In this document: positions 16,914 to 48,181 of the stretch, piece by piece
Layout: the number at the start of each line of letters is the position of its first letter
Numbering within the stretch: the stretch's first letter is position 1
Source: Bacteroidota bacterium
Lineage (GTDB): Bacteria; Bacteroidota; Bacteroidia; Palsa-965
NCBI GenBank assembly: GCA_013298545.1
Contig: JAAFIA010000035.1
Coordinates: 1 to 48,181 of the forward strand
Length of the DNA stretch: 48,181 bases
Direction: 5' to 3'
The notes under the pieces: model-generated
Seen by the model: only the letters and a program-made list of their open reading frames with translations
Told to the model about the DNA's origin: nothing
Database searches by the model: none
Made by a program: the position numbers and the translations under genes

Positions 16914-16935
16914 AATAAAAATTGTGTTCAACAGC

Positions 16936-16943
16936 TATATTTG
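16936..16943 (+). promoter_or_regulatory. Candidate -7 box (TATATTTG) before the glycosyltransferase gene
   Basis: This is an exact TAnnTTTG match ending 3 bp before the ATG at 16947, the same close arrangement as at 8121. No convincing -33 TTTG is present, so it is tentative. Confidence 0.3.
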
Positions 16944-16946
16944 ATC

Positions 16947-20857: not shown

Positions 20858-20957
20858 GAATTGGCGATTGGGCGAATTACTGAATTGGCGATTAAACGCA
20901 TCAATTCACCAACTCACCAACTCACCAATTCACCAATTCACCAATTCGCTAATTCGA
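20858..20957. repeat. Octamer-based intergenic palindrome (locus B)
   Basis: The right half is six octamer units of the CAAYTCAC type in a row (ending in degenerate CAATTCGC and TAATTCG); the left half has the inverse in degenerate form (GAATTGGCGATT, GAATTACTGAATTGGCG). The centre ATTAAACGCATC at 20891-20902 is the reverse complement of the sequence at 16868-16879. It fills the gap between the divergently placed MFS start and the 3' end of the RecD-like gene. Confidence 0.75.
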
Positions 20958-20971
20958 CAATTTATAAGGTC

Positions 20972-27795: not shown

Positions 27796-29082
27796 GGGAG
27801 TGCTCACTTAACTGTGTCGGAGTTCAATAATCTGTCACCAAAATAAGTGTTTAGTTCATTGCGTACAGTATTCCATCCAAACATTTGTCCATGCCATTTG
27901 GTGTTTGCGTTTACGGTAGCTAGATAGATTTGTTTCATGATGGCATCTTCGGAGCTAAATGCGCCTTTTGTTTTAGTAACTTTTCTCACCATTCGATGAT
28001 AGCTTTCGATAGGATTGGTTGTGTAAATAATCTTTCTTAAGGCTTGTGGATACTGGAAGAAATTGACCAAACGATCCCAGTTGTTTCGCCAGCTTCTGAA
28101 AATGACTGCATATTTCGTTCCCCACTTTTCTTCTGCCTGATTCAACTTATGTAATGCCATATCAGCCGTATTTGCATGGTAGATTTCTTTAAGATCACTA
28201 ACACAGGCTCGCAGGTCCTTCCAACTAAGATACTTCATACTATTGCGCATTTGGTGAACCAAACACAACTGAACTTCGCAAGTTGGATAAGTATCTTCTA
28301 TTGCTTCTGCAAAGCCCGTAAGATTATCAATACAAGCAATGCAAATATCTTTTAGTCCACGCATTTTAAGATCATTTAGCACTTGTCGCCAGAAGCTGCT
28401 ACTCTCATGGTCTCCAATATAAATACCGATGACTTCTTTTTGTCCATCTAAGCTAACGGCTAGGATCGAGTAAATGGCTTTAGCTTTTACAACGCCGTTT
28501 TCTCGCACTTTAAAATGCATCGCATCTAACCAGATTACGGGATAAACATTTTCCAAGGGACGACTTTGCCAATCTTTGATTTCTGGAATGATACGGTCTG
28601 TTATGGCACTCAATGTACCGTCCGAAACTTCTACTCCAAACATATCGCGAAGATGTGATTGGATATCTCTATAACTCATGCCGCGACTATATAAGGCGAT
28701 GATTTGCTTGTCTATATCCGAAGACAGACTACGCTGACGTTTTCCTATCGTCTGTGGCTCAAAGGTGCTGTTGCGATCACGCGAGGTGGTCAACTCGATT
28801 GAGCCAAGGCTACTCTGGATCGTTTTACTCGATTTGCCGTTACGACGATTTTTATGATTCGTGCGAGTTTCATCCAAGTGTTCGTCTAGTTCGCCTTCTA
28901 AAGAGGCTTCTAGTATTTTCTTGAGTAAGGGCGTAAAAACGCCACCTTTGCCTGTGAAGGGCTTGCCTTCACGGAGTTGTGCGCCCGCTTGACGCACAAA
29001 TTCTTCAAAATCAAATTTTTCGTTTTCCATTGGTTGTGTCAAGTTAGTTTTTTTATTCATGACACAGTTTAATGAGCATACT
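27796..29082 (-). mobile_element. Intact IS256-family insertion sequence (1287 bp)
   Basis: The terminal inverted repeats are GGGAGTGCTCACTTAACTGTGTC at the left, with AGTATGCTCATTAAACTGTGTC as the reverse complement of the right end; they match over TGCTCA and AACTGTGTC with a few differences. A perfect 9-bp target duplication flanks the element. It inserted between the LysE gene and a CTCCGCACTTGCTT-type sequence of the octamer repeat region. The single transposase gene almost fills it. Confidence 0.9.
27804..29060 (-). CDS. IS256-family (Mutator-type) transposase
   Basis: The 418 residues are colinear with IS256 transposases: an N-terminal EFVRQAGAQL region, GKGGVFTPLLKKILEASLEGELDEHL, RNGKSSKTIQSSLGSIELTTSRDRNSTFEPQ, and the catalytic DDE domain with Asp in VIWLDAMHFKVR, Asp in CIDNLTGF followed by VQLCLVHQMRNS, and Glu in AEEKWGTKY, then YTTNPIESYHRMVRK. 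The start codon abuts the right inverted repeat and the stop lies inside the left one. A second in-frame ATG at 29030 is possible. No frameshift is visible, so the enzyme is probably active. Confidence 0.93.
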   Translation of the reverse strand: MNKKTNLTQPMENEKFDFEEFVRQAGAQLREGKPFTGKGGVFTPLLKKILEASLEGELDEHLDETRTNHKNRRNGKSSKTIQSSLGSIELTTSRDRNSTFEPQTIGKRQRSLSSDIDKQIIALYSRGMSYRDIQSHLRDMFGVEVSDGTLSAITDRIIPEIKDWQSRPLENVYPVIWLDAMHFKVRENGVVKAKAIYSILAVSLDGQKEVIGIYIGDHESSSFWRQVLNDLKMRGLKDICIACIDNLTGFAEAIEDTYPTCEVQLCLVHQMRNSMKYLSWKDLRACVSDLKEIYHANTADMALHKLNQAEEKWGTKYAVIFRSWRNNWDRLVNFFQYPQALRKIIYTTNPIESYHRMVRKVTKTKGAFSSEDAIMKQIYLATVNANTKWHGQMFGWNTVRNELNTYFGDRLLNSDTVK

Positions 29083-29094: not shown

Positions 29095-29413
29095 CCTCCG
29101 CACTTGCTTTCGCGCAGTTGGTGAATTGGTGAATTGGTGAATTGGTGAATTTTAGCTCCGCACTTGCTTACCCTCAGTTGGTGAATTGGTGAATTTTACT
29201 TCGCACATGCTTTCGCGCAATTGGTGAATTTTTCCTCCACACTTGCTTTCGCGCAGTTGGTAAATTGGTGAATTGGAAATTCAGTAACTCACAAATTCAC
29301 CAACTCGCCAATTCGGCAACTCACCAACTCACCAACTCACCAATTCACCAATTCCCTAATTCGGTAATTCACCAACTCACTAATTCTGTAATTCACTAAT
29401 TCTGTAATTCACA
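29095..29413. repeat. Long octamer-based palindrome (locus C)
   Basis: This is the largest member of the family. The left arm has four blocks, each starting with a CTCCGCACTTGCTTTCGCGCAG-like lead (variants at about 29095, 29156, 29201 and 29234) followed by one to four GGTGAATT units. The right arm, from about 29278, has runs of CAATTCAC/CAACTCAC in inverse orientation. The centre is near GAATTGGAAATTC. No ORF can be supported. It fills the gap of about 380 bp between the IS256 element and the glycan operon. Confidence 0.8.
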
Positions 29414-29939: not shown

Positions 29940-32252
29940 ATGAAACGGATCGTTTTTAGTTGCTTTTTTTTCCTGCAAATCATTTCGGTTTGGGCAAGTA
30001 AAGACTTTAATCCCGATTGGTTTCCAATTATTCCTCGTCCACAAACGTTAATCCCGAATGGCGAGAATTTCAGTATTTCATCTTCTACAACTGTTTTTGT
30101 TGCAACTGGCGGCGATTCGGCTAGCGCAGCGTTTCTGATAACGTATTTTCATAATTTCCTTTCCATTGATTTAACCTTTTCGAAGACGCGGATACAAGCT
30201 TCGCAAATCGTTTTCAGACCGGCCATGAGTACAACAACAAGCGAATCTTACGTCGTTGATGTTGCAGCTGATAGTATTGTGATTCAGGGTGCTTCGGCGG
30301 GTTCATTTTATGCGGTACAAACAATTTTTCAAATTTTCAAACCGGTCTATTTATTTTCAGTAGCAAGTGGTGTTGGCGAAATACCGGGCATGCACCTCGA
30401 AGATCGGCCACGATTTGATTGGCGTGGTCTGCATTTGGATGTGGCGCGGCATTTTTTCAGTGTGGAGGATGTGAAATTTTTGTTGCAACAAATGGCGTTT
30501 TACAAACTCAATACGTTTCATTGGCATTTGACAGACGATCAGGGCTGGCGCATCGAAATCAAAAAACACCCACGCTTGACAAGTGTAGGCGCATGGCGCA
30601 AACGCACACTGCTTGGGCATTACAGCGAAGAGCCAGATCGTTACGAAGAAAAAGTATATGGCGGTTTTTATACCCAAGAACAAATTCGCGAAGTGGTGGC
30701 GTATGCGCAACGTTTACACATTACCATTGTTCCTGAAATCGAAATGCCGGGTCATGCTTTGGCCATGCTTGCAGCTTATCCCGAATTGGGCTGCCGCACA
30801 GGAACGTATGAAGTAGCGCAAACATGGGGCGTTTTTGAAGATGTGCTTTGTCCATCAAAAAAAACATTTGCGTTTTTAGATGATGTTCTTACCGAAGTTG
30901 CTGCGCTTTTTCCGGGAACATACATTCACATTGGCGGTGATGAATGTCCGAAAAAACAATGGAAAGAATCGGCTTATTGCCAGCGTTTAATTTTTCAGCA
31001 TCGTTTGAAAGATGAAAATGGTTTGCAAAGTTGGTTCATCAAAAAAATTGTAAGCATGCTTCAGGCCAAAGGAAAAAAGGCGATTGGCTGGGACGAAATT
31101 TTGGATGGCGGCTTGGTCGATGGAGCGGCTGTGATGTCGTGGCGAGGCGAAGAAGGAGGAATTGCGGCGGCGCGGGCGGGACATCCTGTGGTGATGACGC
31201 CAACCAGTCATTGCTATCTCGATTATTACCAATCGCAACAAGCGGGCGAACCCATTGCCATCGGCGGATTTTTACCCATTGAAAAAATATTGAGTTACAA
31301 TCCAATTCCAGCATCGCTTACGCCGGAGCAAGAAAAAATGATCGTAGGTGTGCAAGGAAATTTGTGGACCGAATACATTGCGAGCCGCGCACATCTGGAG
31401 TACATGATTTTTCCACGCATCGCCGCCTTGGCCGAAATTGCTTGGGCTACACCTGTTGACCCGTATTTCTTTCCGCACTTTTTCAGTCGCTTGAATTCGC
31501 AATTTGCGCGTTGGAAGGCACAAAATATAGATGCATCGCAAGCCATGTTTCAGGTTTCTATTCAAACAGAACCAACGTCTGATTTTCGGGCATTACAATT
31601 GCATGCGTTTTCTTTTTTACCGAATAGCGAATATGAATATGCCTTGGGTTACGATAGTCTTCCACAACAATATTTTCCGCTTACAGCACCACAAACCTTG
31701 ATGCAAGATGGTTATTTCTGTGTGCGGCGAAAAGCAGAAGGACAAAGCGTTTTTCCGTCAACGTGTCAAGTCTATAATTACAATTTGGCAACAGGTAAAC
31801 CCATCTCGATTCGCAAAGCACCACATAAAAATTACAACCACGGTGGTGCGTTTACATTGGTGGATGGCATGAGCGGACGGCGCCCATGGACGGGTGCAGA
31901 ATGGCTTGGATTTTGGGGCGATACCTTGGATGCAACGATTGATTTGCTGGAAGTGGAAACGGTTTCTGATATAAGCATTTCTGCACTTCACGATCCGGGT
32001 AGTTGGATTTACGCACCATCGAAAATCATGTTTTATACGTCTGTTGATGGGAAGAATTTCGTGTTGTTTGATTCAACTGGCCAAAATGTTTTCAAAGGCG
32101 AAACGCATGATAAGTTTGGTTACAATATGAGTGATGGAAAGCAAGCGCGTTATGTGCGTGTGGTTGTTTATGGTGCGGGTATGATTCCAGATGGTTTTTC
32201 TGGAAGCGGTTATCCGGCCTGGTTATTTATCGACGAAATAGACATACGATGA
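29940..32252 (+). CDS. GH20 beta-N-acetylhexosaminidase
   Basis: This 770-residue exported enzyme removes terminal beta-GlcNAc or GalNAc. It has a signal peptide (to about residue 20, VWAS), a GH20b-type N-terminal domain (WFPIIPRPQTLIPN), then the catalytic barrel: DRPRFDWRGLHLDVARHF, NTFHWHLTDDQGWRIEIK, PEIEMPGHALAML and HIGGDECPK, with the substrate-assisting Asp334 and acid/base Glu335. It ends with a galactose-binding-like region (YAPSKIMFYTSVDGKNFV, ARYVRVVVYGAG). No T9SS sorting domain is present, so it is probably periplasmic. The cutC start overlaps its stop by 4 bp. Confidence 0.95.
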   Translation: MKRIVFSCFFFLQIISVWASKDFNPDWFPIIPRPQTLIPNGENFSISSSTTVFVATGGDSASAAFLITYFHNFLSIDLTFSKTRIQASQIVFRPAMSTTTSESYVVDVAADSIVIQGASAGSFYAVQTIFQIFKPVYLFSVASGVGEIPGMHLEDRPRFDWRGLHLDVARHFFSVEDVKFLLQQMAFYKLNTFHWHLTDDQGWRIEIKKHPRLTSVGAWRKRTLLGHYSEEPDRYEEKVYGGFYTQEQIREVVAYAQRLHITIVPEIEMPGHALAMLAAYPELGCRTGTYEVAQTWGVFEDVLCPSKKTFAFLDDVLTEVAALFPGTYIHIGGDECPKKQWKESAYCQRLIFQHRLKDENGLQSWFIKKIVSMLQAKGKKAIGWDEILDGGLVDGAAVMSWRGEEGGIAAARAGHPVVMTPTSHCYLDYYQSQQAGEPIAIGGFLPIEKILSYNPIPASLTPEQEKMIVGVQGNLWTEYIASRAHLEYMIFPRIAALAEIAWATPVDPYFFPHFFSRLNSQFARWKAQNIDASQAMFQVSIQTEPTSDFRALQLHAFSFLPNSEYEYALGYDSLPQQYFPLTAPQTLMQDGYFCVRRKAEGQSVFPSTCQVYNYNLATGKPISIRKAPHKNYNHGGAFTLVDGMSGRRPWTGAEWLGFWGDTLDATIDLLEVETVSDISISALHDPGSWIYAPSKIMFYTSVDGKNFVLFDSTGQNVFKGETHDKFGYNMSDGKQARYVRVVVYGAGMIPDGFSGSGYPAWLFIDEIDIR

Positions 32253-33017: not shown

Positions 33018-35621
33018 GTGATCCCAACACGTTTTCTGCTCCTTTTCATTTTCTTCCCAGCAACGTTTCTGCATGCCTATTCGGTGCGCGAAAACTTGAC
33101 AAGCAGTCCGAGTTATTGTGCGTCGTGGCAGGTGAATGAATTGGGTGCTTCCGAAAAATTTACAGCAAAAATACCGGGGACAATTCACACCGATTTACTA
33201 AGCGCCGGAAAAATTCCTGATCCTTTTTTTGGGCACAACGATTCGCTGGTGCGTTGGGTTGGCGAGAAAACGTGGGAATATACATGTTCGTTTATGCCTT
33301 CTGCAAAAATTTGGCAGGCAACGCGCAAAACACTTGTCTTTGAAGGGCTAGACACGTATGCTGATGTTTACCTGAATGGAAAACTTATTCTTCGCGCTAA
33401 CAACATGTTTCGTTGCTGGGAAATTGATGTTACGCAATTGCTGAAAAAAAACGACAATACCTTGCGCCTTATTTTTCATCCGGTTTCGGAAGAAGAAACG
33501 CGTTTGTTAAAAACCGTTCCGTATCGTTTTCCTGAGGGTGGACGGGTGTTTACGCGCAAAGCACAATTTCATTATGGCTGGGATTTTTCGCCACGCATGC
33601 TGACGTGTGGCATTTGGCGGCCTGTTTATTTGGAAGGTGTTTCGGGCAATGCACTTTCGCACACACACATCAAAACGCTTTCGCTGTGCGACGATTCGGC
33701 GGTAGTTCGTATTTCGACAGATTTAACGGCACATAAAAAGGCCGGATTTGAGGCGTTTGTTTTGCTCGACGGAAAAATAATGGCCACACAAAAAAGTGCT
33801 AAGTCGGACTGGAAAAAAGAGCAAGAACTAAATCTAACCTTTACGCTTAAAAACCCGAAGCGTTGGTGGTGCAACGGTTTAGGCGATCCGTTTGTGTATG
33901 CATTCGATTTGGTGGTGGTGAGTAAAGGGGATACGATTCGGCAAAAAATAAAACATGGATTGCGGCACTTGCGGATCGTTACAGACAAAGACAATGTAGG
34001 TACAGGCAGCAGTTTTTATGTGGAGTTGAATGGTGTTCGGGTTTTTATGCGTGGTGCAAATTGGGTACCGCCCGATGTTTTTGTGCCACGTGCGTGGGAA
34101 ACGGATTACGATTTGGCTAAAAAACGAAATTGGGGTTTAGTAAAAAATAAAGTGGAGCATTTATTGTTTGAAGCGCAACGAGCGCATTTCAATATGTTGC
34201 GTGTTTGGGGCGGCGGGGTATATGAAGATGATCGGTTTTATAATATTTGCGATTCGCTGGGTTTGTTGATATGGCAAGATTTTATGTTTGCGGGTTCGCC
34301 TTATCCGGGCGATGAACAGTTTATGGCCAATGTACGCGCGGAGGTGCGCGATAATGTGATGCGGCTACGCAACCATGCGTGTTTGGCCTTGTGGTGTGGC
34401 AATAACGAAATTGATGAGGGTTGGCACAATTGGGGCTGGCAGCGCGATTTGAAATACACCAAAGAAGATTCGACGCAGGTTTGGAAAAATTATGTTGCAA
34501 CATTTCGTACAGCGATTCCGCAGCTTGTATCGGAATTGGATTCGGGACGTTTTTATTGGTCATCGTCGCCATCGGGGGGCTGGGGGCGCGATGCGAGTTA
34601 TACCTTTGGCGATGTGCACTACTGGGGCGTTTGGTGGGGCACGCGCGATTTTAGTTCGTACGAAAAAAGTGTAGGCCGTTTTGTGAGCGAATACGGTTTT
34701 CAAGGCATTCCGCCGTTGGCTTCGTTGCACGAAATGGCCGGACAAGAAGTGCAATCGTTGATGGATTTGTCTTTGCGCGCGCATCAGAAAAATGCGCGTG
34801 GTTTTGCAACCGTGCGTTCGTTTATCACCAACTATTACAAAGAGCCGTTAAAATTTGCCGATTACAGTTACCTCTCGCAGCTTGTTCAGGCCGATGGCTA
34901 TCAGGCGGCAATTGATGCACACCGGCGCGCAAAACCGTATTGCATGGGTTCGTTGTTTTGGCAATGGAACGATCCTTGGCCCGCAATCAGTTGGTCGGCA
35001 ATAGATTGGTATGGCCGCAAAAAATTGGTTGCCTACCGCGCAGCAGAAGCATTTCAGCCGTTTAACATGACGATGCACGAACGCAACGATTCTATTGTAA
35101 TCACGATTATAAATGATACCCGTAAAGACATAGCCGGAAGGTTATTTGTTTACAGTTGCGACGAAACCGGAAAGCGCGATACCTTGCGAAATATCCTCAT
35201 TGAATATTCGCCGACAAAAAATGGAGAAGTATTTCGATTTTCAAAAAAAGACTTGAGCAAAACGATTGATTGGACGACAAGTGCTTTGGTTTCGGAATTC
35301 AAACACGAGCGTAGTGAATTGAATCGTCGTGTGATTTTTTACGGAACAGATTTTCGGAATTTCAAACTCGAAAAAGGTACACTTATTATTGATCGTTTAT
35401 CGGTGTTTGCTCCCAAAAATTTAATTCGTTTAAAAGCGAAAACATGGACGCGTCGCATTTACCTGAGTTTGCCAGATGATCCGAATGCTGTTTTCAGTAA
35501 CAATGGGTTTGATTTACTTCCCGGCGAGATCGAAACGGTAATTATTGAAGCAGCAACAACAACCAAAAGTTTCGAGCAGCGTGTTCAGGTGCAATGTTTA
35601 AATGATGTTGATTGGAAATAA
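33018..35621 (+). CDS. GH2-family beta-mannosidase
   Basis: This 867-residue exported enzyme starts at a GTG (33018), the only start that gives the signal peptide MIPTRFLLLFIFFPATFLHA. Domains in order: jelly-roll sugar-binding (VNELGASEKFTAKIPGTIHTDLL, LDTYADVYLNG), Ig-like, then the catalytic barrel. It has FMRGANWVPPDVFVP, MLRVWGGGVYEDDRFY, the acid/base Glu464 in CGNNEIDEGW, and the nucleophile Glu558 in VSEYGFQGIP, followed by C-terminal Ig domains. The WQDFMFAGSPYP and GGGVYE blocks are typical of beta-mannosidases. With the GH20 enzyme it could take apart a GlcNAc-mannose glycan such as an N-glycan core. No sorting domain is present, so it is probably periplasmic. Confidence 0.95.
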   Translation: MIPTRFLLLFIFFPATFLHAYSVRENLTSSPSYCASWQVNELGASEKFTAKIPGTIHTDLLSAGKIPDPFFGHNDSLVRWVGEKTWEYTCSFMPSAKIWQATRKTLVFEGLDTYADVYLNGKLILRANNMFRCWEIDVTQLLKKNDNTLRLIFHPVSEEETRLLKTVPYRFPEGGRVFTRKAQFHYGWDFSPRMLTCGIWRPVYLEGVSGNALSHTHIKTLSLCDDSAVVRISTDLTAHKKAGFEAFVLLDGKIMATQKSAKSDWKKEQELNLTFTLKNPKRWWCNGLGDPFVYAFDLVVVSKGDTIRQKIKHGLRHLRIVTDKDNVGTGSSFYVELNGVRVFMRGANWVPPDVFVPRAWETDYDLAKKRNWGLVKNKVEHLLFEAQRAHFNMLRVWGGGVYEDDRFYNICDSLGLLIWQDFMFAGSPYPGDEQFMANVRAEVRDNVMRLRNHACLALWCGNNEIDEGWHNWGWQRDLKYTKEDSTQVWKNYVATFRTAIPQLVSELDSGRFYWSSSPSGGWGRDASYTFGDVHYWGVWWGTRDFSSYEKSVGRFVSEYGFQGIPPLASLHEMAGQEVQSLMDLSLRAHQKNARGFATVRSFITNYYKEPLKFADYSYLSQLVQADGYQAAIDAHRRAKPYCMGSLFWQWNDPWPAISWSAIDWYGRKKLVAYRAAEAFQPFNMTMHERNDSIVITIINDTRKDIAGRLFVYSCDETGKRDTLRNILIEYSPTKNGEVFRFSKKDLSKTIDWTTSALVSEFKHERSELNRRVIFYGTDFRNFKLEKGTLIIDRLSVFAPKNLIRLKAKTWTRRIYLSLPDDPNAVFSNNGFDLLPGEIETVIIEAATTTKSFEQRVQVQCLNDVDWK

Positions 35622-36599: not shown

Positions 36600-36935
36600 G
36601 GGTTATTGATTTATGTAGGGTATGTAGGATGTAAACATATATATTTATTTATAACTCCAAAGAACAAATCAAAAAACAGAAGTCGAATCTAGTTGTAGTG
36701 AGTGCTCGCTTTAATGCTGGCAATTTTTGCTTCTTCTTGCATCGTAGAAACTGTATTTGTTGAAGATTATTGTGCGCAAATTTAAAATCATCCTGTTTAA
36801 ACTCTTGTCGTTTTATAAATTGGTTTAATTTAGCGGTAGAGAACGAACCGATTTTGAGGTTTACCATACATCTGTTCTCTGTTTCAGATTAGTAACGTCG
36901 TTTGAAACAGCATCGCACATCAAACGAATTAGCAC
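36600..36935 (+). other. Intergenic upstream region of the first propeller gene
   Basis: The stretch is AT-rich and non-coding as far as I can support. Its last about 150 bp (CCTGTTTAAA, TTGGTTTAATTTAGCGGT, then CACATCAAACGAATT before the start) are similar in order and spacing to the region before the second propeller gene, so the upstream region was duplicated with the gene. Confidence 0.55.
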
Positions 36936-39257
36936 ATGGCCAATTATTTTTTGCGATTTAGTGTACTGCTCCTGCTTCTGATCGGGAGTATGCCCGTTTG
37001 TGCGCAAAATGGACTTTGGACATGGATGCATGGTAGTAATTTGCCCAACGTCATGGGCAGTTTCGGTGTACAAGGAGTTGCTGCTCCAGGCAATGATCCG
37101 CCTGCATTATACGAAAGTGTTTCTTGGACTGATTTCACGGGTAATTTCTGGATGTTTGGGGGCTTGGATGCAAACTATCAAGAGTATTCGGCCTTATGGA
37201 AATATGATCCTGTTGCCAATGTGTGGACATGGACGAACGGGCCAAATACAACAAATATTTCGGGAAGTTATGGTGTGCAAGGTATTCCATCCCCAGCAAA
37301 TAATCCTGGAGCGCGGGCCTGGGGATCAACAGCTTGGACAGATAGCCAAGGCCGCTTATGGCTATTTGGTGGTTATGGGTACGATGTGAATGGAGTTCAT
37401 GGTATGTTGAATGATTTGTGGTTATATGATGTAACTACAAATTTATGGACATGGATGGCTGGTCCAAATACGGCAAATAGTCTTGGGAATTATGGTGTAC
37501 AACTTGTTCCTTCTCCAGCAAATATACCTCCTTCGCGTTATGAAAACAATGCTTCTTGGACAGACAATACGGGCAATCTCTGGATTTATGGTGGTGCCAA
37601 CTTGTTCCTAAACCAAGCATATAGTGATATGTGGATGTTTGACATTGGAACCAATACATGGACTTGGATGGCTGGATCGAATGCGCCGAATGTTCCTGTA
37701 AATTTTGGAATACAACAAGTATCAAGTCCAAACAATACACCCGGTAGTCGAATTGTTTTTGGTAAATGGAAAGATTGTCAGGGCAATTTCTGGATTTTTG
37801 GAGGAAACGATTTTGCAAATACAGGATCGAATTGGGCTGATATGTGGAAGTTTGATCTAGCCACCTTACAATGGACATGGATGGCGGGGAGCAATGTTCC
37901 GAACTTTGCTGGAAGTTTCAATACACAATGTGTTGCAGGGGCACAATCGCCTGCTGCGAGGCACGAAAATAGAACTTGTTGGACTGATCTAAGTGGTCGA
38001 TTTTGGCAATATGGTGGATTGGGAATAAACATAGAAAATGATCTGTGGATGTTTGATCCAAATACCAATCAATTTACTTGGGTGTCGGGTTTATTGACGG
38101 GTAATGCTGTTGGAACGTACGGTGTGATGGGTGTTCCTGCTGCTGCAAATAACCCCGAAGGATTGTTTGGAGGATCTTCTTGGACTGATTTGAATGGCGA
38201 CTTTTGGATGTTTGGTGGCTTTACGGGGCAGAGCCATCACGGTGCTTTGTGGCGTTACCAAAAAGATCCGAACTGCCCAGGTCCGGGAAGCTCAAATGGT
38301 CCGCCTACCGCTTTATTTACTTCAAATCCTGATACCGGATGTGTTCCACTAATCGTCAATTTTACATCGGGCAACACTGGAAACTTTGTCTATCATTGGG
38401 ATTTTGGCGATCCGAATGCATCAAATGATACAAGTAACACCGCCAATTCAAGTTATACTTACACCACAACAGGAACCTTTGTTGTTTCGATGATTATTAA
38501 CGGAACTGCACTTTGTGTTTCAGGCATCGATACAGCTTACGATACGATTGTAGTTTTTGCGCCACCGCTTGTCAATTTAGGAAACGATACATTGCTCTGT
38601 CCTTATGTTCAATTCTTACTCGATGCTGGAAATCCTGGAGCTATTTATCAATGGAGTACAGGAGCAAATTCGCAAACCATGCTGACGGATAGTTCGGGCA
38701 TGTATGCGGTTACGGTCAGCACGAATGGTTGTACTTCGCGAGATTCTATTTTACTAACATTTGCGGATTCAAACTATTTGGCAGACGAACTTATGCTTTG
38801 TGGTGTTTTTGAAACACAATTGGATGCTGGTAATCAAAATGCAAGCTCGTATTTATGGAGTACGGGAGCAACGACATCAAGTATTAACATTGATGGGCCT
38901 GGGATTTATTGGGTCCAAGTAAATGTAGGAAATTGCATCATCGTTGATTCAATCGAAGTAATCGGAACACCTGGCGATGGCGTGCTTTATATTCCCAATA
39001 CATTTACACCCAATGGCAACGGAACGAATGATTATTTCAAACCCAAAGGCGAAGGTGTTGTAACGTTTTATATGCGCATTTTTGATCGTTGGGGCGAATT
39101 GATTTTCGAGACCAATGATATAAATACGGGATGGGATGGAAAACGTAAAGACAATATTGTTCAGATCGACACCTACGTCTATGTTATTGAATACACGACA
39201 ATTTGCTCGAATGGCAATATTTTGCGCAGGATTGGGCATGTAAATGCGATTAAGTAA
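36936..39257 (+). CDS. Kelch-like propeller/PKD surface protein 1 with T9SS type B sorting domain
   Basis: This 773-residue protein has a signal peptide (MANYFLRFSVLLLLLIGSMPVCA). Residues 24-445 are six about 65-residue blades with the recurring pattern WTWMxGxN, GSFGVQGV, NDPPALYE, WTDxxGNFWMFGG, DLWMYDxxTN, a kelch-like Trp-rich variant. A PKD domain (FVYHWDFGDPNASNDT) spans about 452-535. Two Ig-like repeats follow: one beginning LGNDTLLCP, the other LADELMLCGV, each with a WSTGA core. The C-terminal about 95 residues (YIPNTFTPNGNGTNDYFKPKG, IFDRWGELIFETND) are the CHU_C type B sorting domain. It is probably cell-surface attached, with an adhesin-like role inferred. It is first of a five-gene tandem array. 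Confidence 0.88.
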   Translation: MANYFLRFSVLLLLLIGSMPVCAQNGLWTWMHGSNLPNVMGSFGVQGVAAPGNDPPALYESVSWTDFTGNFWMFGGLDANYQEYSALWKYDPVANVWTWTNGPNTTNISGSYGVQGIPSPANNPGARAWGSTAWTDSQGRLWLFGGYGYDVNGVHGMLNDLWLYDVTTNLWTWMAGPNTANSLGNYGVQLVPSPANIPPSRYENNASWTDNTGNLWIYGGANLFLNQAYSDMWMFDIGTNTWTWMAGSNAPNVPVNFGIQQVSSPNNTPGSRIVFGKWKDCQGNFWIFGGNDFANTGSNWADMWKFDLATLQWTWMAGSNVPNFAGSFNTQCVAGAQSPAARHENRTCWTDLSGRFWQYGGLGINIENDLWMFDPNTNQFTWVSGLLTGNAVGTYGVMGVPAAANNPEGLFGGSSWTDLNGDFWMFGGFTGQSHHGALWRYQKDPNCPGPGSSNGPPTALFTSNPDTGCVPLIVNFTSGNTGNFVYHWDFGDPNASNDTSNTANSSYTYTTTGTFVVSMIINGTALCVSGIDTAYDTIVVFAPPLVNLGNDTLLCPYVQFLLDAGNPGAIYQWSTGANSQTMLTDSSGMYAVTVSTNGCTSRDSILLTFADSNYLADELMLCGVFETQLDAGNQNASSYLWSTGATTSSINIDGPGIYWVQVNVGNCIIVDSIEVIGTPGDGVLYIPNTFTPNGNGTNDYFKPKGEGVVTFYMRIFDRWGELIFETNDINTGWDGKRKDNIVQIDTYVYVIEYTTICSNGNILRRIGHVNAIK

Positions 39258-39539
39258 AGCGATAAATTAGACATCGGGTGGCAAAACCGTTTTACCGAGC
39301 GTGGCATCGCTCATTTTCCAGATTCTTTTGTAACACCAAACAGGTTGCTTAACCAAGAGCAGGATAAGAGCCTGTTTAAAATTTGTTATTATTCCATTTT
39401 AAATTTGCTTCTCACGTAAATTAGTTTAATTTAGCTGTTTAGAATACGGATTGTTTTTCGGTATCCGAAAAATTCGTTTCTCTGCTTTAAATTAGTGGCA
39501 TAGTTTGAGGCAGTATCACACATCAAACACATTCGACCC
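39258..39539 (+). other. Intergenic region between propeller genes 1 and 2
   Basis: No gene is seen. It contains a GAGCGTGGCATCGCTC hairpin at about 39297 that lacks a T-tract, and CCTGTTTAAAATTTG at about 39370, which resembles the terminal sequence of the MITE at 3661. The end (TTAGTTTAATTTAGCTG, then CACATCAAACACATT) parallels the region before the first propeller gene. Confidence 0.5.
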
Positions 39540-42269
39540 ATGGCGAATTGTTCTTTCCGATTTATCGCAATACTCCTGTTTATGATCGGGAGTTTGCAAA
39601 CGTATGCGCAAAATGGTCTTTGGACTTGGATGCGTGGTCCCAATACGCCTAATTCTAATGGTAGTTTTGGTGTACAAGGTGTAGCTGCTCCGGGTAACGA
39701 TCCGCCGGCAGTTTACGAAGCACCAACTTGGACCGATCTCAATGGCAATTTTTGGATGTTTGCTGGTTTGGATGCAAACTTTCAAGAATACTCGGCTATG
39801 TGGAAATACGATCCTGTTGCCAATTTATGGACTTGGATGAATGGTCCTAATACATTGGTGCAACCAGGGAATTACGGTGTGCAAGGCGTTCCTGCGCCTA
39901 GTAATAATCCGGGCGCGCGCTCGTGGGGGCCAGCGGCGTGGACAGATAACCAAGGACGTTTATGGATGTTTGGCGGTTATGGCTACGACGCAAATGGAAT
40001 GCAAGGCATGCTGAATGATTTGTGGATGTATGATGTAACCACAAATTTATGGACGTGGATGGCTGGCCCCAATACCGTAAACAGTCTCGGAAACTATGGC
40101 GTACAACTTGTTCCTTCTCCTGCTAATCTTCCACCTTCCCGTTACGAAGACAATGCGTCTTGGACAGATAACTCGGGAAATCTTTGGATTTATGGTGGCG
40201 GTAACCTTAGCTTCAATCAAACATACAGCGATATGTGGATGTTTGATATTGGCACCAATACCTGGACTTGGATGGCCGGATCGAATTTACCCAATATACC
40301 TGCAAACTTTGGTGTGCAACAAGTAGCTAACCCGGCCAATACGCCTGGTGGACGCATTGTTTATGGCAAATGGAAAGATTGCCAAGGTAATTTTTGGATT
40401 TTTGGTGGAAATGATTTGTTTGGTGGAGGTTTTACATGGGCCGATATGTGGAAGTTTGATCTTGCTACTTTGCAATGGACGTGGATGGCAGGAAGTAATG
40501 TTCCGAATTTTCAGGGAAGTTTCAATACGCAATGTGTTGCAGGAGCGCAATCGCCTTCGGCACGATATGAAAACCGAACGTGTTGGACCGATCTTGGTGG
40601 ACGTTTTTGGCAATACGGTGGCTTTGGTACAAATATGGAAAACGACTTGTGGATGTTTGATCCGAATACCAATCAGTTTACATGGGTTTCTGGTTTGCTC
40701 ACGGGTAATGCTGTTGGAGCTTATGGCGTGATGGGTGTTCCTTCTGCGGCCAATAATCCCGAAGGTTCGTTTGGTGCACCTTATTGGACCGATTTACAAG
40801 GTGATTTCTGGATGTTTGGTGGTTGGACTGCGCAAAGTAGAAATAGTGCTTTGTGGCGTTACCAACAAGATCCCAATTGCCCCGGGCCTGCTAGTCCAAA
40901 TGGTCCGCTGACGGCTTTGTTCACTTCTAACCCCGATACAGGATGTGTGCCGCTCACGGTTAATTTCACATCAGGAAACGCCGGAAATTTCGTTTATCAT
41001 TGGGATTTTGGTGATCCGAACGCGACGAACGATACGAGCAATACAACCAATTCAAGTTATACTTATACCGCAACTGGAACATTTGTTGTTTCCATGATCA
41101 TCAATGGAACATCGCTTTGTGTTTCGGGCGTTGATACGGCTTACGATACCATTGTGGTTATACCACCACCTGTTGTCAATTTAGGAAACGATACGTCTAT
41201 TTGCGGCACACCCAACCTTTTGCTCGATGCCGGAAATCCTGGTTTAACGTATAGTTGGAGTACAGGTGCAATAACGCAAACCATCAATGCCAATGCAACA
41301 GGAACGTATTGGGTTTCGGTGAGCAATGGGTTTTGCTCCGATACCGATACGATTGTGATTCAACTTGCGCCACCGCCCAGTTTAGGAAACGATACAACCA
41401 TTTGTCAGGGCAATTCCATTACCCTCACGGCCTCTGCGGGTGCGAGTTGGAACTGGAATACGGGTGCGAATACACAAACGATCAACGTATCGTCATCGGG
41501 CATCTATTGGGTCGATGTTGACGATGGAAACAACTGCATTCAACGTGATTCGATTCTTGTTACTGTAAATCCAATGCCGGTGGTACAACTCGGAAACGAT
41601 ACGTTCTTGTGTCCAGATGTGCAGGTCTTGCTAGATGCCGGAAATCCGGGTGCAACGTATTCTTGGAGCACAGGCGCAAATTCACAAACCATTCTTACCG
41701 ATAGTTCGGGTATGTATGCGGTTACTGTCAACTTGAATAATTGTATCATGCAGGATTCTATTTTGCTCACCTTTGCAGAACCTGTTTATCTCGGCGACGA
41801 ACTTACCCTTTGTGGTGTTTTTGAAGCAGAACTGGATGCCGGAAACCCGAATGCCACTTCGTATTTATGGAATACTGGAGCAACAACATCGACCATTATT
41901 GTAGATGGTCCGGGCAATTATTGGGTACAAGTCAACGTTGGTAATTGTGTCATCTTTGACTCCATTGAAGTAATTGGTACACCTGGCGATGGCGTTTTGT
42001 ATATTCCCAATACATTTACACCAAATGGAAACGGCACAAATGATTATTTCAAACCAAAAGGCGAAGGCGTAGTTACATTCAACATGCGCATTTTCGATCG
42101 TTGGGGCGAATTGATTTTTGAAACGGATGATATGAATACAGGCTGGGATGGTAAACGCAAAGGCAATATTGTGCAGATTGATACCTATGTATATGTCATC
42201 GAATACACCACGATTTGCTCGAATGGTAAAAAGTTGCGAAGACTCGGGCATGTGAATGCGATTAAATAG
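39540..42269 (+). CDS. Kelch-like propeller/PKD surface protein 2 with T9SS type B sorting domain
   Basis: With 909 residues this is the longest of the complete members. It has a signal peptide (to about residue 23, LQTYAQ), six blades closely matching those of protein 1, and a PKD domain at about 450-535. There are four Ig-like repeats instead of two: LGNDTSICG (about 545), LGNDTTICQG (about 613), LGNDTFLCPD (about 681) and LGDELTLCG (about 750). The first three share GGAAACGATAC-type coding, consistent with internal duplication. The type B sorting domain at about 815-909 is nearly identical to that of protein 1. The extra Ig repeats would extend the propeller further from the cell surface. 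Confidence 0.88.
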   Translation: MANCSFRFIAILLFMIGSLQTYAQNGLWTWMRGPNTPNSNGSFGVQGVAAPGNDPPAVYEAPTWTDLNGNFWMFAGLDANFQEYSAMWKYDPVANLWTWMNGPNTLVQPGNYGVQGVPAPSNNPGARSWGPAAWTDNQGRLWMFGGYGYDANGMQGMLNDLWMYDVTTNLWTWMAGPNTVNSLGNYGVQLVPSPANLPPSRYEDNASWTDNSGNLWIYGGGNLSFNQTYSDMWMFDIGTNTWTWMAGSNLPNIPANFGVQQVANPANTPGGRIVYGKWKDCQGNFWIFGGNDLFGGGFTWADMWKFDLATLQWTWMAGSNVPNFQGSFNTQCVAGAQSPSARYENRTCWTDLGGRFWQYGGFGTNMENDLWMFDPNTNQFTWVSGLLTGNAVGAYGVMGVPSAANNPEGSFGAPYWTDLQGDFWMFGGWTAQSRNSALWRYQQDPNCPGPASPNGPLTALFTSNPDTGCVPLTVNFTSGNAGNFVYHWDFGDPNATNDTSNTTNSSYTYTATGTFVVSMIINGTSLCVSGVDTAYDTIVVIPPPVVNLGNDTSICGTPNLLLDAGNPGLTYSWSTGAITQTINANATGTYWVSVSNGFCSDTDTIVIQLAPPPSLGNDTTICQGNSITLTASAGASWNWNTGANTQTINVSSSGIYWVDVDDGNNCIQRDSILVTVNPMPVVQLGNDTFLCPDVQVLLDAGNPGATYSWSTGANSQTILTDSSGMYAVTVNLNNCIMQDSILLTFAEPVYLGDELTLCGVFEAELDAGNPNATSYLWNTGATTSTIIVDGPGNYWVQVNVGNCVIFDSIEVIGTPGDGVLYIPNTFTPNGNGTNDYFKPKGEGVVTFNMRIFDRWGELIFETDDMNTGWDGKRKGNIVQIDTYVYVIEYTTICSNGKKLRRLGHVNAIK

Positions 42270-42313
42270 CTTAAAACGATAAACATCCCCTAACGTTAGT
42301 AACATGATGTTTT

Positions 42314-44425
42314 ATGTTTTTGATGCAACGCAAACAAAACAAGAGAAGTCTATTTTCGATTTTATTCTTTTTGATAAGTCTCGTTTCAGTTGCGCAAAAC
42401 GGAACATGGACATGGATGCATGGTGCCAATACACCTAATTCTTTAGGGAGTTTTGGTGTACAAGGAGTTGCTGCTCCAAGCAATGATCCGCCCGCTTTGT
42501 ATGAGTCTGTATCTTGGACTGACCTCAATGGCAATTTCTGGATATTTGGTGGAATTGGCAATGTTGTTGGCACATACAATGCTTTATGGAAATTTGATCC
42601 CATTGCCAATATGTGGACGTGGATGAAAGGAGCAAACACAACGCAACAAGCCGGAAATTATGGTGTTCAAGGAGTGCCTTCAGTTACCAATAATCCGGGG
42701 TCGCGGGCGTGGGGAGCTTGCTCTTGGGTTGATACGCAGGGACATCTATGGCTTTTTGGGGGACATGGTTCCGATGCATTCGGAAATTCAGGAAAACTGA
42801 ATGATTTATGGATGTATGATATATCAACTAATCTTTGGACTTGGATGCATGGTTCTACAATCAGAGATGATTTTGGCGATTATGGTGGTTTTCAAATTCC
42901 AAACCCCTCCAATCTTCCCCCAAGTCGAGATGAAACAAATGCTTGTTGGATTGATCACGATGGTAATTTTTGGATGTTTGGTGGTTCGGGAAATCAGTAT
43001 TATGACGATATGTGGATGTACAATCCTGCTACAAATCAATGGGCATGGATGAGTGGGTCCGATACACCCAATAATCCTCCTAGTTTTGGAACACAGCAGG
43101 TTGCTGCCTCATCCAATACACCTGGCGCTCGTCTGGTCTATGGTCATTGGACAGATTGTTATGGCAATTTCTGGATCATGGGTGGAACGAATACAAATTA
43201 TGATGTATGGGGTGATATGTGGATGTACAATCCAAGAACCTATCAATGGACTTGGATGGCAGGAAGCAGTCAGACCAATATTTTGGGTTCCTTTTCTACA
43301 AAATGCCAAACCGGAAATGCCTTACCTGCTGCAAGGATGGAAAACACTACTTGTTGGACAGATTCGTATGGGCGGTTTTGGCAATATGGAGGCTCGGCTT
43401 GGTCTTATTTTTATTTGAATGATTTATGGATGTTCGACCCGATCACCAACCAATTCACTTGGATTTCGGGATCACTAACGGGTAATTCGGTTGGCAATTA
43501 TGGTCAATTGGGAGTACCTGCCCCAACAAATAATCCTGAAGGTTCTAATGGGGCTGTTTCGTTCACCGATTTACAAGGCAATTTTTGGATGTTTGGTGGA
43601 TGGACTCAACTTGGACGCAATTCGGCTTTGTGGCGTTATCAAATAGATTCTACTTGTCCTGGCCCCGGAACTCCAGCACCTCTTATTGCTTACGTTGAAT
43701 CAGATATGGATACAGGTTGTATTCCCAATACGGTATATGTTGAGACCGATGATTTCAACAGCCTAACTTATCATTGGGATTTTGGTGATCAAACAACCAT
43801 AGGCGACACGAGCAACCAATCCGCTGCTTCATATACCTACACAAATGCTGGAACCTATACGGTATCATTAGTCATTCAAGGAACAGCTCGTTGTGCTTCA
43901 GGAATTGATACTGCCTATAAAACAATCGTAATGATACAAGGAGCAAGCGTTGACCTTGGGAATGACACAACAATTTGTGGTCCAATTTATCTCCGCTTAG
44001 ATGCTGGCTATCCTGACTATAATCATGATTGGAATACAGGGTCGTACCAACAATCCATTTTAGTTTCGAGTGCTGGTTCTTATGATGTTGTGCTGACTAA
44101 TAGTTATGGCTGTTTTGCATTTGATACAATTGTTATACGTCAAGCTACAACAGAAGATATTACTCCACCAAATGTCTTTACACCCAATCAGGATGGCATC
44201 AATGATCTGTATGAATTGGAATATAGTTCTGCTGATTCGTATGCCATCCAAATTTATGACCGTTGGGGAAAATTAGTTTTTGCAAGCGATGATGCTACGC
44301 AGAAATGGGATGGGAATTTTGAGGGCAAACCGTGTAGCGATGGCGTGTATTATTGGATTATTTCTTTCACCAATTGCGAAGACGAAAAGCAAATTAAGCA
44401 TGGGTTTGTGCAGCTTATTCGTTGA
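42314..44425 (+). CDS. Kelch-like propeller/PKD surface protein 3 with T9SS type B sorting domain
   Basis: This 703-residue protein follows gene 2 by 44 bp, so it may be co-transcribed. A second ATG at 42323 is an alternative start. The signal peptide ends near VSVAQ. Six blades occupy about 30-450 (for example WTWMHGANTPNSLGSFG, GHLWLFGGHGSD), then a PKD domain at about 458-540 (LTYHWDFGDQTTIGDTSN), one Ig-like repeat (LGNDTTICGPIYLRLDAGYP), and a type B sorting domain (NVFTPNQDGINDLYELE, IYDRWGKLVFASDDATQKWDGN). That last domain is almost identical in DNA to that of gene 4 although the rest is more diverged. Confidence 0.88.
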   Translation: MFLMQRKQNKRSLFSILFFLISLVSVAQNGTWTWMHGANTPNSLGSFGVQGVAAPSNDPPALYESVSWTDLNGNFWIFGGIGNVVGTYNALWKFDPIANMWTWMKGANTTQQAGNYGVQGVPSVTNNPGSRAWGACSWVDTQGHLWLFGGHGSDAFGNSGKLNDLWMYDISTNLWTWMHGSTIRDDFGDYGGFQIPNPSNLPPSRDETNACWIDHDGNFWMFGGSGNQYYDDMWMYNPATNQWAWMSGSDTPNNPPSFGTQQVAASSNTPGARLVYGHWTDCYGNFWIMGGTNTNYDVWGDMWMYNPRTYQWTWMAGSSQTNILGSFSTKCQTGNALPAARMENTTCWTDSYGRFWQYGGSAWSYFYLNDLWMFDPITNQFTWISGSLTGNSVGNYGQLGVPAPTNNPEGSNGAVSFTDLQGNFWMFGGWTQLGRNSALWRYQIDSTCPGPGTPAPLIAYVESDMDTGCIPNTVYVETDDFNSLTYHWDFGDQTTIGDTSNQSAASYTYTNAGTYTVSLVIQGTARCASGIDTAYKTIVMIQGASVDLGNDTTICGPIYLRLDAGYPDYNHDWNTGSYQQSILVSSAGSYDVVLTNSYGCFAFDTIVIRQATTEDITPPNVFTPNQDGINDLYELEYSSADSYAIQIYDRWGKLVFASDDATQKWDGNFEGKPCSDGVYYWIISFTNCEDEKQIKHGFVQLIR

Positions 44426-44457
44426 GCGTTTTTAATCTAACTTGGTAATAAAAGAGC

Positions 44458-46563
44458 ATGTGGTATTCGGTTCGCTCCATCTTGATGTATATACTTTGCC
44501 TGGTTTGCATGCACACTGTACATGCGCAAAACGGAACATGGACTTGGATGCACGGTGTCAATACCCCAAATTTTTCGGGGAGTTTTGGTGTACAAGGTGT
44601 AGCTGCTCCGACCAATGATCCCCCTGCTTTGTATGAGACCTGTGAGTGGACAGATCTGCAAGGCAATTTCTGGATTTTTGGTGGTCTTGAAAGTTCATCG
44701 GGAAGTAATCACGGAGCATTGTGGAAATATGATCCATCTACGAATATGTGGACATGGATGAACGGATCAAATTTTCCAAACCAAGCAGGTATTTATGGTA
44801 CACAAGGTGTTCCTGCTCCCTCCAATAGTCCTGGATCTCGTGCATGGGGAGTTCTTTCATGGACAGATCTTGCCGGCGATCTATGGCTATTTGGAGGGTA
44901 TGGATACGATGCACTCGGACAAATTGGTGTACTCAACGATCTCTGGCGATATAATATTGCGACCAATATGTGGACGTGGATGAGTGGACAACAGGTGGTG
45001 AATATGCTCGGCAATTATGGCTTGCTACAAATTCCGGCAGCAACAAATGAGCCTCCCCCAAAATCGGAATCGAGTGCGTCTTGGACAAGTAATGCTGGCG
45101 ATCTCTGGATGTTTGGTGGAAGTAATTTCATAGGTTATTTGAATGATATGTGGTCATATAATATCAATACCAATATGTGGACTTGGATGAGTGGCGCCAA
45201 TACAGTAGGGGCATTACCAAACTTTGGAACACAACTAGTCCCTGCCAATACGAATAACCCAGGAGCAAGGTGTGCTTATTCTAAATGGAAAGATAGCAAT
45301 GGCAATTTTTGGTTGTTTGGTGGCTTCGATCCGCTCAATCAATTTGCCGATATGTGGATGTATAATCCAAACACAAATGTATGGACTTGGATGGCGGGTA
45401 GCAATCAAATCAATACTTCGGGAGCCTTTCAAGTTCCATGTCAATGGACGAATGACTATCCTTCTTCGCGTTATGAGAGTAGAGCTTGCTGGACAGACGC
45501 TTGCGGCAGATTTTGGCAAAAAGGTGGTTTTGATGCATTCACACAATCTGCATGCGAACTATGGGTCTTTGATCCAAGCATCAATCAATTCAATTGGGTC
45601 AATGGCCCATTATCGCTCAATTGTCCGGCTAATTTTGGCACCTTGCTTGTTCCTTCTCCGTCCAATCTACCTCCAAGCAATGGCGGTTCGGTTGGGTTTG
45701 TCGGATTAAATGGAGACTTATGGCTTTTTGGTGGTGCTGGTGGTGTGAATTTAGACGCAACCAATTCGTTGTGGCGATATGAAATCGATTCGCTTTGCCC
45801 TGTACCAAGCTTTCTAGCCATCGATGCTGGATTTTCATATACAAGTTCACCTTTTTGTAGCAACGATACCATTTTGTTTTCGGCAAATACAAGCAATCCG
45901 CTTTATACTTATAGTTGGAATTTTGGCAACCCCTCATCTACTATGGATACATCTTCATTGACTCATCCAAGTCATGTATATACGAATACAGGAGCGTATC
46001 AGGTCTCGTTGACTGTTTTTTTCAACAGCATTTGTTTTGGCGATTCGGTAAGCTCCTCACAAGTAATTTTTATCTCAGAAAGCCCACAGCCAAACTTGGG
46101 CAATGATACCATACTTTGCGCAGCACAGGAATTAACGCTCTATGGTGCTTATCCCAATGCAAGTCATGTTTGGTCAACATTGGAAACAACATCAACTATT
46201 ACGGTAAACGATTCTGGTCATTATTGGGTTCAAGTCAATAATAATGGCTGCGTGGGCAGCGATTCCATTTACATTGCCTATGAAGATGGCGGTACTATTT
46301 CTCCTCCAAACGTATTCACCCCAAACAACGATGGCATCAATGATCTATACAATCCAACTTTAGGTTCTTTAGATTTTTTCACAATCCAAATCTATGACCG
46401 TTGGGGAAAATTAGTTTTTGCAAGCGATGATGCTACGCAGAAATGGGATGGAAATTTTGAGGGCAAACCGTGTAGCGATGGCGTATATTATTGGATTATT
46501 TCTTTCACCAATTGCGAAGACGAAAAGCAAAACGAGCATGGGTTTGTGCAGCTTGTTCGTTGA
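44458..46563 (+). CDS. Kelch-like propeller/PKD surface protein 4 with T9SS type B sorting domain
   Basis: This 701-residue protein lies 32 bp after gene 3. It has a signal peptide (to MHTVHAQ), six blades to about residue 448, a PKD domain (YSWNFGNPSSTMDTSS) at about 455-540, one Ig-like repeat (LGNDTILCAAQELTLYGAYP) and a type B sorting domain (NVFTPNNDGINDLYNPT, IYDRWGKLVFASDDATQ). The blades are nearest to those of gene 5 (LNDLWRYNIATNMWTWMSG), while the sorting domain is nearest to gene 3. Blade 1 has a Cys (YETCEWTD) and blade 5 a Cys in DACGRFW, a pair also present in gene 5 but not in genes 1-3. Confidence 0.88.
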   Translation: MWYSVRSILMYILCLVCMHTVHAQNGTWTWMHGVNTPNFSGSFGVQGVAAPTNDPPALYETCEWTDLQGNFWIFGGLESSSGSNHGALWKYDPSTNMWTWMNGSNFPNQAGIYGTQGVPAPSNSPGSRAWGVLSWTDLAGDLWLFGGYGYDALGQIGVLNDLWRYNIATNMWTWMSGQQVVNMLGNYGLLQIPAATNEPPPKSESSASWTSNAGDLWMFGGSNFIGYLNDMWSYNINTNMWTWMSGANTVGALPNFGTQLVPANTNNPGARCAYSKWKDSNGNFWLFGGFDPLNQFADMWMYNPNTNVWTWMAGSNQINTSGAFQVPCQWTNDYPSSRYESRACWTDACGRFWQKGGFDAFTQSACELWVFDPSINQFNWVNGPLSLNCPANFGTLLVPSPSNLPPSNGGSVGFVGLNGDLWLFGGAGGVNLDATNSLWRYEIDSLCPVPSFLAIDAGFSYTSSPFCSNDTILFSANTSNPLYTYSWNFGNPSSTMDTSSLTHPSHVYTNTGAYQVSLTVFFNSICFGDSVSSSQVIFISESPQPNLGNDTILCAAQELTLYGAYPNASHVWSTLETTSTITVNDSGHYWVQVNNNGCVGSDSIYIAYEDGGTISPPNVFTPNNDGINDLYNPTLGSLDFFTIQIYDRWGKLVFASDDATQKWDGNFEGKPCSDGVYYWIISFTNCEDEKQNEHGFVQLVR

Positions 46564-46690
46564 AGTGGATTTCTTGAAAATTTAAACCCTATAAACAAAA
46601 AAAGGCTTGATGTGTTATTAATATACTTTATAATGTTGCCAAAGCAAATCAGCTAGATCCCAATCGTTGAATTGTATGCAATACTAAACA

Positions 46691-48181
46691 ATGTTCATGT
46701 TTCAACTACGCTCCAAAAACTGCCTCGCAGTATTCCTCTTGTTTTATATCATTTCGAGCAGTGCTTATGCTCAAAATGGCACTTGGACTTGGATGCGTGG
46801 ATCAAATGTGAATAACCAACCGGGTAATTTTGGTGTTCAAGGTGTTGCTTCACCAGCAAACGATCCTCCAGGATTGTACGAAGCCTGTGAATGGACAGAC
46901 TTGCAAGGTAATTTCTGGATTTTTGGAGGGATTAATAATAGTTTCGCCGAATACTCTGTTCTCTGGAAATTTGATCCTACTACTAATCTTTGGACTTGGG
47001 TAAATGGCCCGAATACGACATCTCAATCTGGTTCTTATGGTATTCAAGGTGTTCCTGCTCCAGGAAATTTTCCGGGATCTCGCGCCTGGGGGGTACTTAC
47101 TTGGGTAGATCAGGCGGGCGATCTTTGGCTTTTTGGCGGATATGGGTACGATGCGTTTGGCGCTTTGGGTGGACTCAATGATTTATGGCGTTACAACATT
47201 GCAACCAATACGTGGACATGGATGAGAGGCTCGAATGCCGTTTCGAGTTTAGGAAATTATGGTACATTACAAGTTTCGTCCAATACAAATGATCCGCCTT
47301 CGATTGTTGAAGTGTGTTCGAGTTGGACGAGCAATACTGGCGATCTTTGGTTTTATGGTGCGGTAGGAATAGCGGGACTTTTGAGCGACATGTGGAAATA
47401 CAATATTGCCACCAATGAATGGACTTGGATGAGTGGCTCAGGCACACCAAGCGTTCCGGCAAATTGGGGTACACAGTTTGTGGCTAGTCCAACCAATACC
47501 CCGGGAGGCCGTTATGTTTATTCCAGGTGGGTGGATAATTCAGGTAATTTTTGGTTGTACGGTGGCTACGATATTTTTTTGGGGTTTCTTTCCGATATGT
47601 GGATGTATGATGTCAATACCAACCTATGGACTTGGATGGCTGGAACCACAACGTACAGCAGTTTCGGAACATTCAATACACAATGCCAATTGACATCTAA
47701 CCATCCAACGTCGCGCTTCGAGTCTCGGGTGTGTTGGACAGACGAATGTGGACGATTTTGGCAATTTGGAGGCATTGATCCCAATGGTGCAACGTTAAGC
47801 GATTTGTGGATGTACGATCCTGTTTCAAATCAATTCAATTGGATTGCAGGCACTTTACTTCCTAGTCAGCTCGGCAATTATGGAACCATTCTTGTCCCTG
47901 CACAGGCAAACTATCCTGAAAGTGCTGCGGGTGGAAATGCATTTGTTGATAATAATGGCGATTTTTGGATGTTTGGTGGCTTGACAGTCGGCGGGCGTAC
48001 AAACGCTTTATGGAAATATATACGCGATCCAAATTGTAATGGTGGAGGAATTAGTGCCGCATTCACCGGAACACCCATTTCCGGTTGTGTTCCGCTCACC
48101 GTCAATTTTACACCAAACAGCAGCAACGCGCAAAACAATTACCACTGGGATTTTGGCGATCCAAACGCCACCAACGATACC
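46691..48181 (+). CDS. Kelch-like propeller/PKD surface protein 5 (3' end outside window)
   Basis: The frame is open from the ATG at 46691 to the last base (497 codons). It has a signal peptide (MFMFQLRSKNCLAVFLLFYI, ending SSSAYAQ), then six blades of the same pattern (NGTWTWMRGSN, GNFGVQGVASPANDPPGLYE, WTDLQGNFWIFGG, LNDLWRYNIATNTWTWM). The start of a PKD domain (SGCVPLTVNFTP, HWDFGDPNATNDT) is reached at the window's end. The Ig repeats and sorting domain are expected beyond it. A 127-bp gap precedes it, longer than between genes 3 and 4, so it may have its own promoter. Confidence 0.88.
   Translation, partial: MFMFQLRSKNCLAVFLLFYIISSSAYAQNGTWTWMRGSNVNNQPGNFGVQGVASPANDPPGLYEACEWTDLQGNFWIFGGINNSFAEYSVLWKFDPTTNLWTWVNGPNTTSQSGSYGIQGVPAPGNFPGSRAWGVLTWVDQAGDLWLFGGYGYDAFGALGGLNDLWRYNIATNTWTWMRGSNAVSSLGNYGTLQVSSNTNDPPSIVEVCSSWTSNTGDLWFYGAVGIAGLLSDMWKYNIATNEWTWMSGSGTPSVPANWGTQFVASPTNTPGGRYVYSRWVDNSGNFWLYGGYDIFLGFLSDMWMYDVNTNLWTWMAGTTTYSSFGTFNTQCQLTSNHPTSRFESRVCWTDECGRFWQFGGIDPNGATLSDLWMYDPVSNQFNWIAGTLLPSQLGNYGTILVPAQANYPESAAGGNAFVDNNGDFWMFGGLTVGGRTNALWKYIRDPNCNGGGISAAFTGTPISGCVPLTVNFTPNSSNAQNNYHWDFGDPNATNDT

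Follow-up and report, generated by a model that had tools for sequence, protein, structure and literature searches.

The window analysed here is the entire contig C84 (48181 bp) from the genome of a Bacteroidota bacterium (4.53 Mb in 154 contigs). Its last part, from nt 36936 onwards, contains five consecutive open reading frames (ORFs), K1–K5, all on the plus strand. Their predicted products share one layout: a putative signal peptide, a six-bladed kelch domain, a PKD domain, Ig-like repeats and a CHU_C domain, the type B sorting domain of the type IX secretion system (T9SS). The array is a lineage-specific expansion of kelch-headed T9SS type B proteins, made of known parts in a new arrangement.

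Gene content of the array and its continuation

K1 (36936–39257; 773 aa) shows the full layout, with the kelch domain at about residues 25–447, two Ig-like repeats and a terminal CHU_C domain. K2 (39540–42269; 909 aa), whose closest paralogue is K1, follows the same plan with four Ig-like repeats before CHU_C. K3 (42314–44425; 703 aa) and K4 (44458–46563; 701 aa) have a single Ig-like repeat each and carry a second class of sorting domain, described below. K5 (46691–48181) is cut by the contig end, and the 497 aa encoded in the window comprise a putative signal peptide, the six-bladed kelch domain and the start of the PKD domain. The genes are separated by spacers of 282, 44, 32 and 127 bp.

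The array does not stop at the contig end. A second contig of the same genome, C51 (L009, 3215 bp), starts with a sequence identical, letter for letter, to the last 126 bp of the window (48056–48181, plus strand). It completes K5, giving a protein of 905 aa with four Ig-like repeats and CHU_C, and continues with a gene for a short, putatively secreted protein (252 aa) of five WG repeats (PF14903; L009:1527–2285), which lies between K5 and a sixth kelch gene, K6. The latter begins 36 bp after the WG-repeat gene and is cut after 298 residues; a search of the other contigs of the genome did not recover its remainder. The overlap and the start of K6 together bring the array to six kelch genes or more. 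An earlier note on this DNA had described five paralogues of the same layout, so the array is longer than it had supposed, while the description of the proteins as giant does not hold for members with complete sequence, which measure 701–909 aa.

In a Pfam/NCBIfam profile search, Kelch_3, Kelch_4 and PF24681 scored above their curated cut-offs in all five genes of the window. PKD_4 did so in K1–K4, and the truncated PKD domain of K5 scored below. The Ig-like repeats between PKD and the sorting domain, counted by eye from the LGNDT..C motif in the protein sequences, number 2, 4, 1, 1 and 4 in K1–K5. The N-termini of all copies are hydrophobic and end in AQN(G), and residues 2–17 formed a helix in a low-confidence, full-length model of K1.

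The DNA just upstream of K1 (36816–36945) and K2 (39417–39549), both on the plus strand, has 130 bp in common at 72% identity, a candidate promoter or leader that may have been duplicated along with the gene. Scans for the Bacteroidota promoter pattern, sigma-70 promoters and terminators gave no matches above chance, and no tandem repeats able to give phase variation were found within the array.

Propeller fold, duplication and divergence

Each of K1–K5 has six blades of about 67–75 residues apiece; the earlier count of six was correct, and the length of about 65 residues given with it was too short. The kelch domain of K5, modelled from a nine-row alignment that joined K5 and its paralogues to four segments of other metagenome-assembled genomes (MAGs), folded into a six-bladed propeller (predicted local distance difference test, pLDDT, 90; predicted template modelling score, pTM, 0.89), the last blade being completed by the N-terminal WTWM strand. 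The propeller proposed in the note is thus borne out by structure prediction. An earlier full-length model of K1 (seven rows) reached a pLDDT of only 48 and was left out of structure matching.

The best solved match to the K5 model is the kelch domain of LZTR1 (Z 38.0, 2.2 Å over 308 residues). Further matches include KLHDC2 (Z 36.2), plant specifier proteins and YjhT/NanM (Z 30.8). With LZTR1, KLHDC2, KLHL12 and Keap1 (Z 29–38) the model shares six four-stranded blades, closure of the ring by an N-terminal strand and the GG motif, but the array proteins are only 18–20% identical to these, are bacterial proteins predicted to be exported and have about 70 residues per blade. Their blades are longer than those of animal kelch proteins mainly because of a long, conserved inter-blade loop, which holds the G.FGVQGV signature. 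The blade signature as a whole (WTWM..G / GxFGVQGV / FGG), which the note had called unusually uniform for kelch repeats, recurs, with the blades laid out alike, in further Bacteroidota MAGs and a MAG labelled Burkholderiales, and so marks a widespread bacterial kelch type. Other kelch proteins with a WTWM..G..FG.QG. blade (L025, L027) have this signature and the long loop in common with the array, but they reach about 12–13 blades, bear other sorting or anchoring ends, and were not seen in an array with a WG-repeat gene.

Blades at the same position in different paralogues are 59% identical, compared with 42% for blades at different positions, indicating that whole genes were duplicated rather than single blades. 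A tree built from 57 kelch domains places K1–K3 in one clade (support 0.998) and K4–K6 in a second, together with a gene of a congeneric species (support 0.979); since that gene falls inside the K4–K6 clade, the array is partly older than the species split. The same tree shows independent kelch expansions in the related genomes G006 and G245. The latter (3.8 Mb) has at least 13 scattered kelch genes (L047–L051, L077–L083, L086), most of them with CHU_C; none of those examined has a WG neighbour.

The five near-complete genomes of the genus have 6 (this genome), 9, 1, 1 and 1 kelch matches, and, of 296 genomes of the class that were sampled, 23 carry the family. The note had named two findings that would tell against its proposal, a predicted structure without a propeller and widespread single-copy orthologues of constant number; the results were a propeller and a copy number that varies, as it had expected.

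Among the K copies, the nonsynonymous divergence (dN) of the kelch domain is 0.11–0.43 and the synonymous divergence (dS) is saturated, near 1.5–2. With dN far below dS, the copies appear to be old and mostly constrained, under overall purifying selection. The constraint is uneven. Among K1–K5, mean pairwise identity falls to 0.37 in the BC loops, against 0.53–0.78 in the other structural elements, and the wider kelch family gives the same ranking (0.23 for BC loops, 0.37–0.60 for the rest). Animal kelch proteins bind their ligands through the BC and DA loops. The variation of the BC loops, on what is putatively the ligand face, fits ligand diversification, and the ligands probably differ between copies or are variants of one another. 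The suggestion of a diversifying system in the earlier note therefore finds partial support in these loops, and sits less well with the low dN and with the clearest recent event in the array, which is a homogenisation of the K3 and K4 sorting domains.

Sorting domains and the linked WG-repeat gene

The CHU_C/TIGR04131 domains of K1–K4 score 53–62 bits (cut-off 35) and that of K5, on contig C51, 52 bits. The genome encodes a full-length SprA translocon (2710 bits) and about 40 CHU_C matches above cut-off, in agreement with the type B assignment made in the note. It also has 12 PorP/SprF genes, eight of which directly adjoin a CHU_C gene, but none is found on C84 or C51, i.e., none beside the array. 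In three relatives (G004, G007 and G008), PorP/SprF adjoins a kelch gene. Type B cargos are anchored at the surface by binding to PorP-like proteins (PMC9143113). Adjacency to a cognate PorP/SprF gene is common but not obligatory, and orphan type B cargos are known (PMC12618676). In the absence of a PorP/SprF gene of its own, the array probably relies on shared shuttles.

The sorting domains fall into two classes. Class I comprises those of K1 (38991–39254), K2 (42003–42266) and K5, which are 65–93% identical to each other and 39–57% identical to those of many other, unlinked type B cargos that this genome encodes and that belong to the same class. Class II comprises those of K3 and K4, which are 78% identical; identity between the classes is 28–33%. 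Flavobacterium johnsoniae has three orphan type B cargos that use a single shuttle and whose sorting domains are more than 44% identical; cross-talk was seen for a pair of domains at 68% identity, but not for pairs at 43% and 26% (PMC12618676). By this yardstick, two shuttles are predicted for the array, one for K1, K2 and K5 and one for K3 and K4.

The last 180 bp of K3 (44246–44425) and K4 (46384–46563) match at 173 of 180 positions. Similarity drops sharply just upstream, and the kelch dS of the pair is about 1.8, which together identify a gene-conversion tract. Elsewhere, at G000:C74:9571–14856, CHU_C matched four times in a row, with scores that were the same or almost so (29.6 bits for three of them). 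This may be a further tandem array of type B cargos whose sorting domains are nearly identical.

Like other type B cargos (the class of SprB, PG1035 and Fjoh_1123/1720/4934), the array proteins combine a putative signal peptide, a repetitive, predicted extracellular region and CHU_C/TIGR04131 in a genome with SprA and PorP/SprF. They differ in the kelch head, the tandem arrangement of at least six genes, the lack of an adjacent PorP/SprF gene, the two sorting classes and the linked WG-repeat gene. The repeats of the gliding adhesin SprB (PF13573) had no match in K1–K5.

Short homologues of the WG-repeat protein were found at 12 loci in the genomes examined, one of them shortened by a contig end; these genomes include 17 that had been picked for having kelch genes, and the query was taken from the present genome. 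Nine of the 12 lie within two genes of a kelch gene, across three families of the class. At eight loci the WG gene is directly upstream of the kelch gene on the same strand (G000, G001, G006, three loci in G008, G016 and G022), and in G004 the order is kelch, PorP/SprF, WG. Given about five kelch genes with four neighbour positions each per 3500 genes, the binomial probability of this linkage is near 1e-18, uncorrected for shared ancestry. The sample for linkage within the order was 12 genomes. In the class sample, all nine genomes with a short WG protein also have kelch genes (hypergeometric 2e-11, again uncorrected for ancestry), and no further short WG homologue was detected in 394 other genomes of the phylum.

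The other three loci (G245:C35; G009:C6, at a contig end; G040:C26) lack a kelch neighbour. At G040:C26 (L069:4659–9481), the short WG gene adjoins a PorP/SprF gene and an Ig_7/CHU_C cargo, so WG proteins may be tied more generally to type B export. In the collection of papers searched, nothing relevant was found on kelch proteins and T9SS, nor on WG-repeat proteins and T9SS. The recurrence of a WG gene next to kelch genes in several relatives appears to be an undescribed link, and is the most original lead of this analysis. Where the WG gene immediately precedes a kelch gene, its product is probably a functional partner.

A more specific proposal, which we put forward tentatively, is that WG is a dedicated partner of kelch type B cargos (a periplasmic escort, surface co-receptor or anchor) in an undescribed T9SS accessory module, and that the cargos of the array would be split between two shuttles, their compatibility being kept by gene conversion of the sorting domains.

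The array has no conserved chromosomal locus. This possibility was considered and rejected, as the flanking genes of the window have no counterparts beside the kelch genes of relatives, weak T9SS-tail matches excepted. No match was found among 72,556 plasmid records, and a link to viruses came down to one weak match (25%). The window has further repeats outside the array. An 8-bp unit (TTGGTGAA / AATTCACC) forms arrays at 29118–29412 and 20895–20962, the former adjoining a Mutator-family transposase gene (27804–29060), and a 193-bp unit is repeated 2.4 times with 96% identity at 17763–18231, at the end of ORF 16866–17816.

Function of the kelch proteins

The explanation we favour, and consider somewhat better than even, is that the array encodes lineage-specific cell-surface recognition proteins exported by the T9SS. 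Each would have a six-bladed kelch head on a PKD/Ig stalk, the length of which varies, and would be exported via the type B C-terminal domain. Whole-gene duplication would have produced the six or more copies, with the propeller scaffold conserved and the BC loops, which lie on the ligand-binding face in well-studied kelch proteins, diverging most. The putative ligands are glycans or proteins on the surface of neighbours, hosts or substrates. The two sorting classes would direct the copies to two shuttles, and the short, putatively secreted WG protein, its gene directly upstream of a kelch gene, would act as functional partner.

Several observations weigh against this explanation. Most kelch genes of the family lack a WG neighbour, including all those examined in G245, and the WG gene of the present genome lies on a second contig, joined by the 126-bp overlap. 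Variation of the BC loops combined with saturated dS also falls short of proving diversifying selection.

The foremost alternative, to which we would give perhaps one chance in a handful, is a structural role for the proteins, as matrix or stalk components of a biofilm or cell coat, with the expansion reflecting dosage and drift instead of ligand diversification. Strong conservation of the propeller strands and DA loops, dN far below dS, the freely varying number of Ig-like repeats and the homogenised sorting domains of K3 and K4 are all compatible with a scaffold. However, the least conserved elements are the BC loops, on the presumptive ligand face, and relatives with a single copy retain the same propeller, which would be expected of a binding module.

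A role as secreted glycan-acting enzymes, like the six-bladed kelch protein N-acetylneuraminate epimerase (NanM/YjhT) or galactose oxidase, is improbable, although the structural match to YjhT (Z 30.8), weak local NANM matches in K4 and K5, and the GH20 and glycoside hydrolase family 2 genes upstream of the array (29940–32252 and 33018–35621) point in that direction. The NANM matches reach 14.9–15.1 bits against a cut-off of 45, over one blade only, and non-enzymatic kelch domains are better structural matches than YjhT. From NanM the array proteins also differ in their predicted stalked surface architecture and in showing no sign of catalysis; no lectin or enzyme signature was found in the kelch proteins of the array. 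Galactose oxidase is seven-bladed, whereas both sequence and model give six blades here, and the glycosidase genes are unlinked to kelch genes in relatives. Least credible is a module for interbacterial antagonism or predation, in which WG protects or loads the kelch cargo; it would suit the conserved gene pair, the short secreted partner and the patchy distribution, but no kelch cargo has a toxin domain and many lack a WG neighbour.

Should the propellers prove to be no more than interchangeable coat proteins, the array would be an ordinary paralogue expansion. Orphan type B cargos belong to those parts of type IX secretion that are least understood. With one scaffold, variable putative ligand loops, two sorting classes and a WG gene, the array is a compact test system, and it raises the questions of how cargos choose their shuttle, what bacterial kelch proteins bind, and what part WG proteins may play in export or display.

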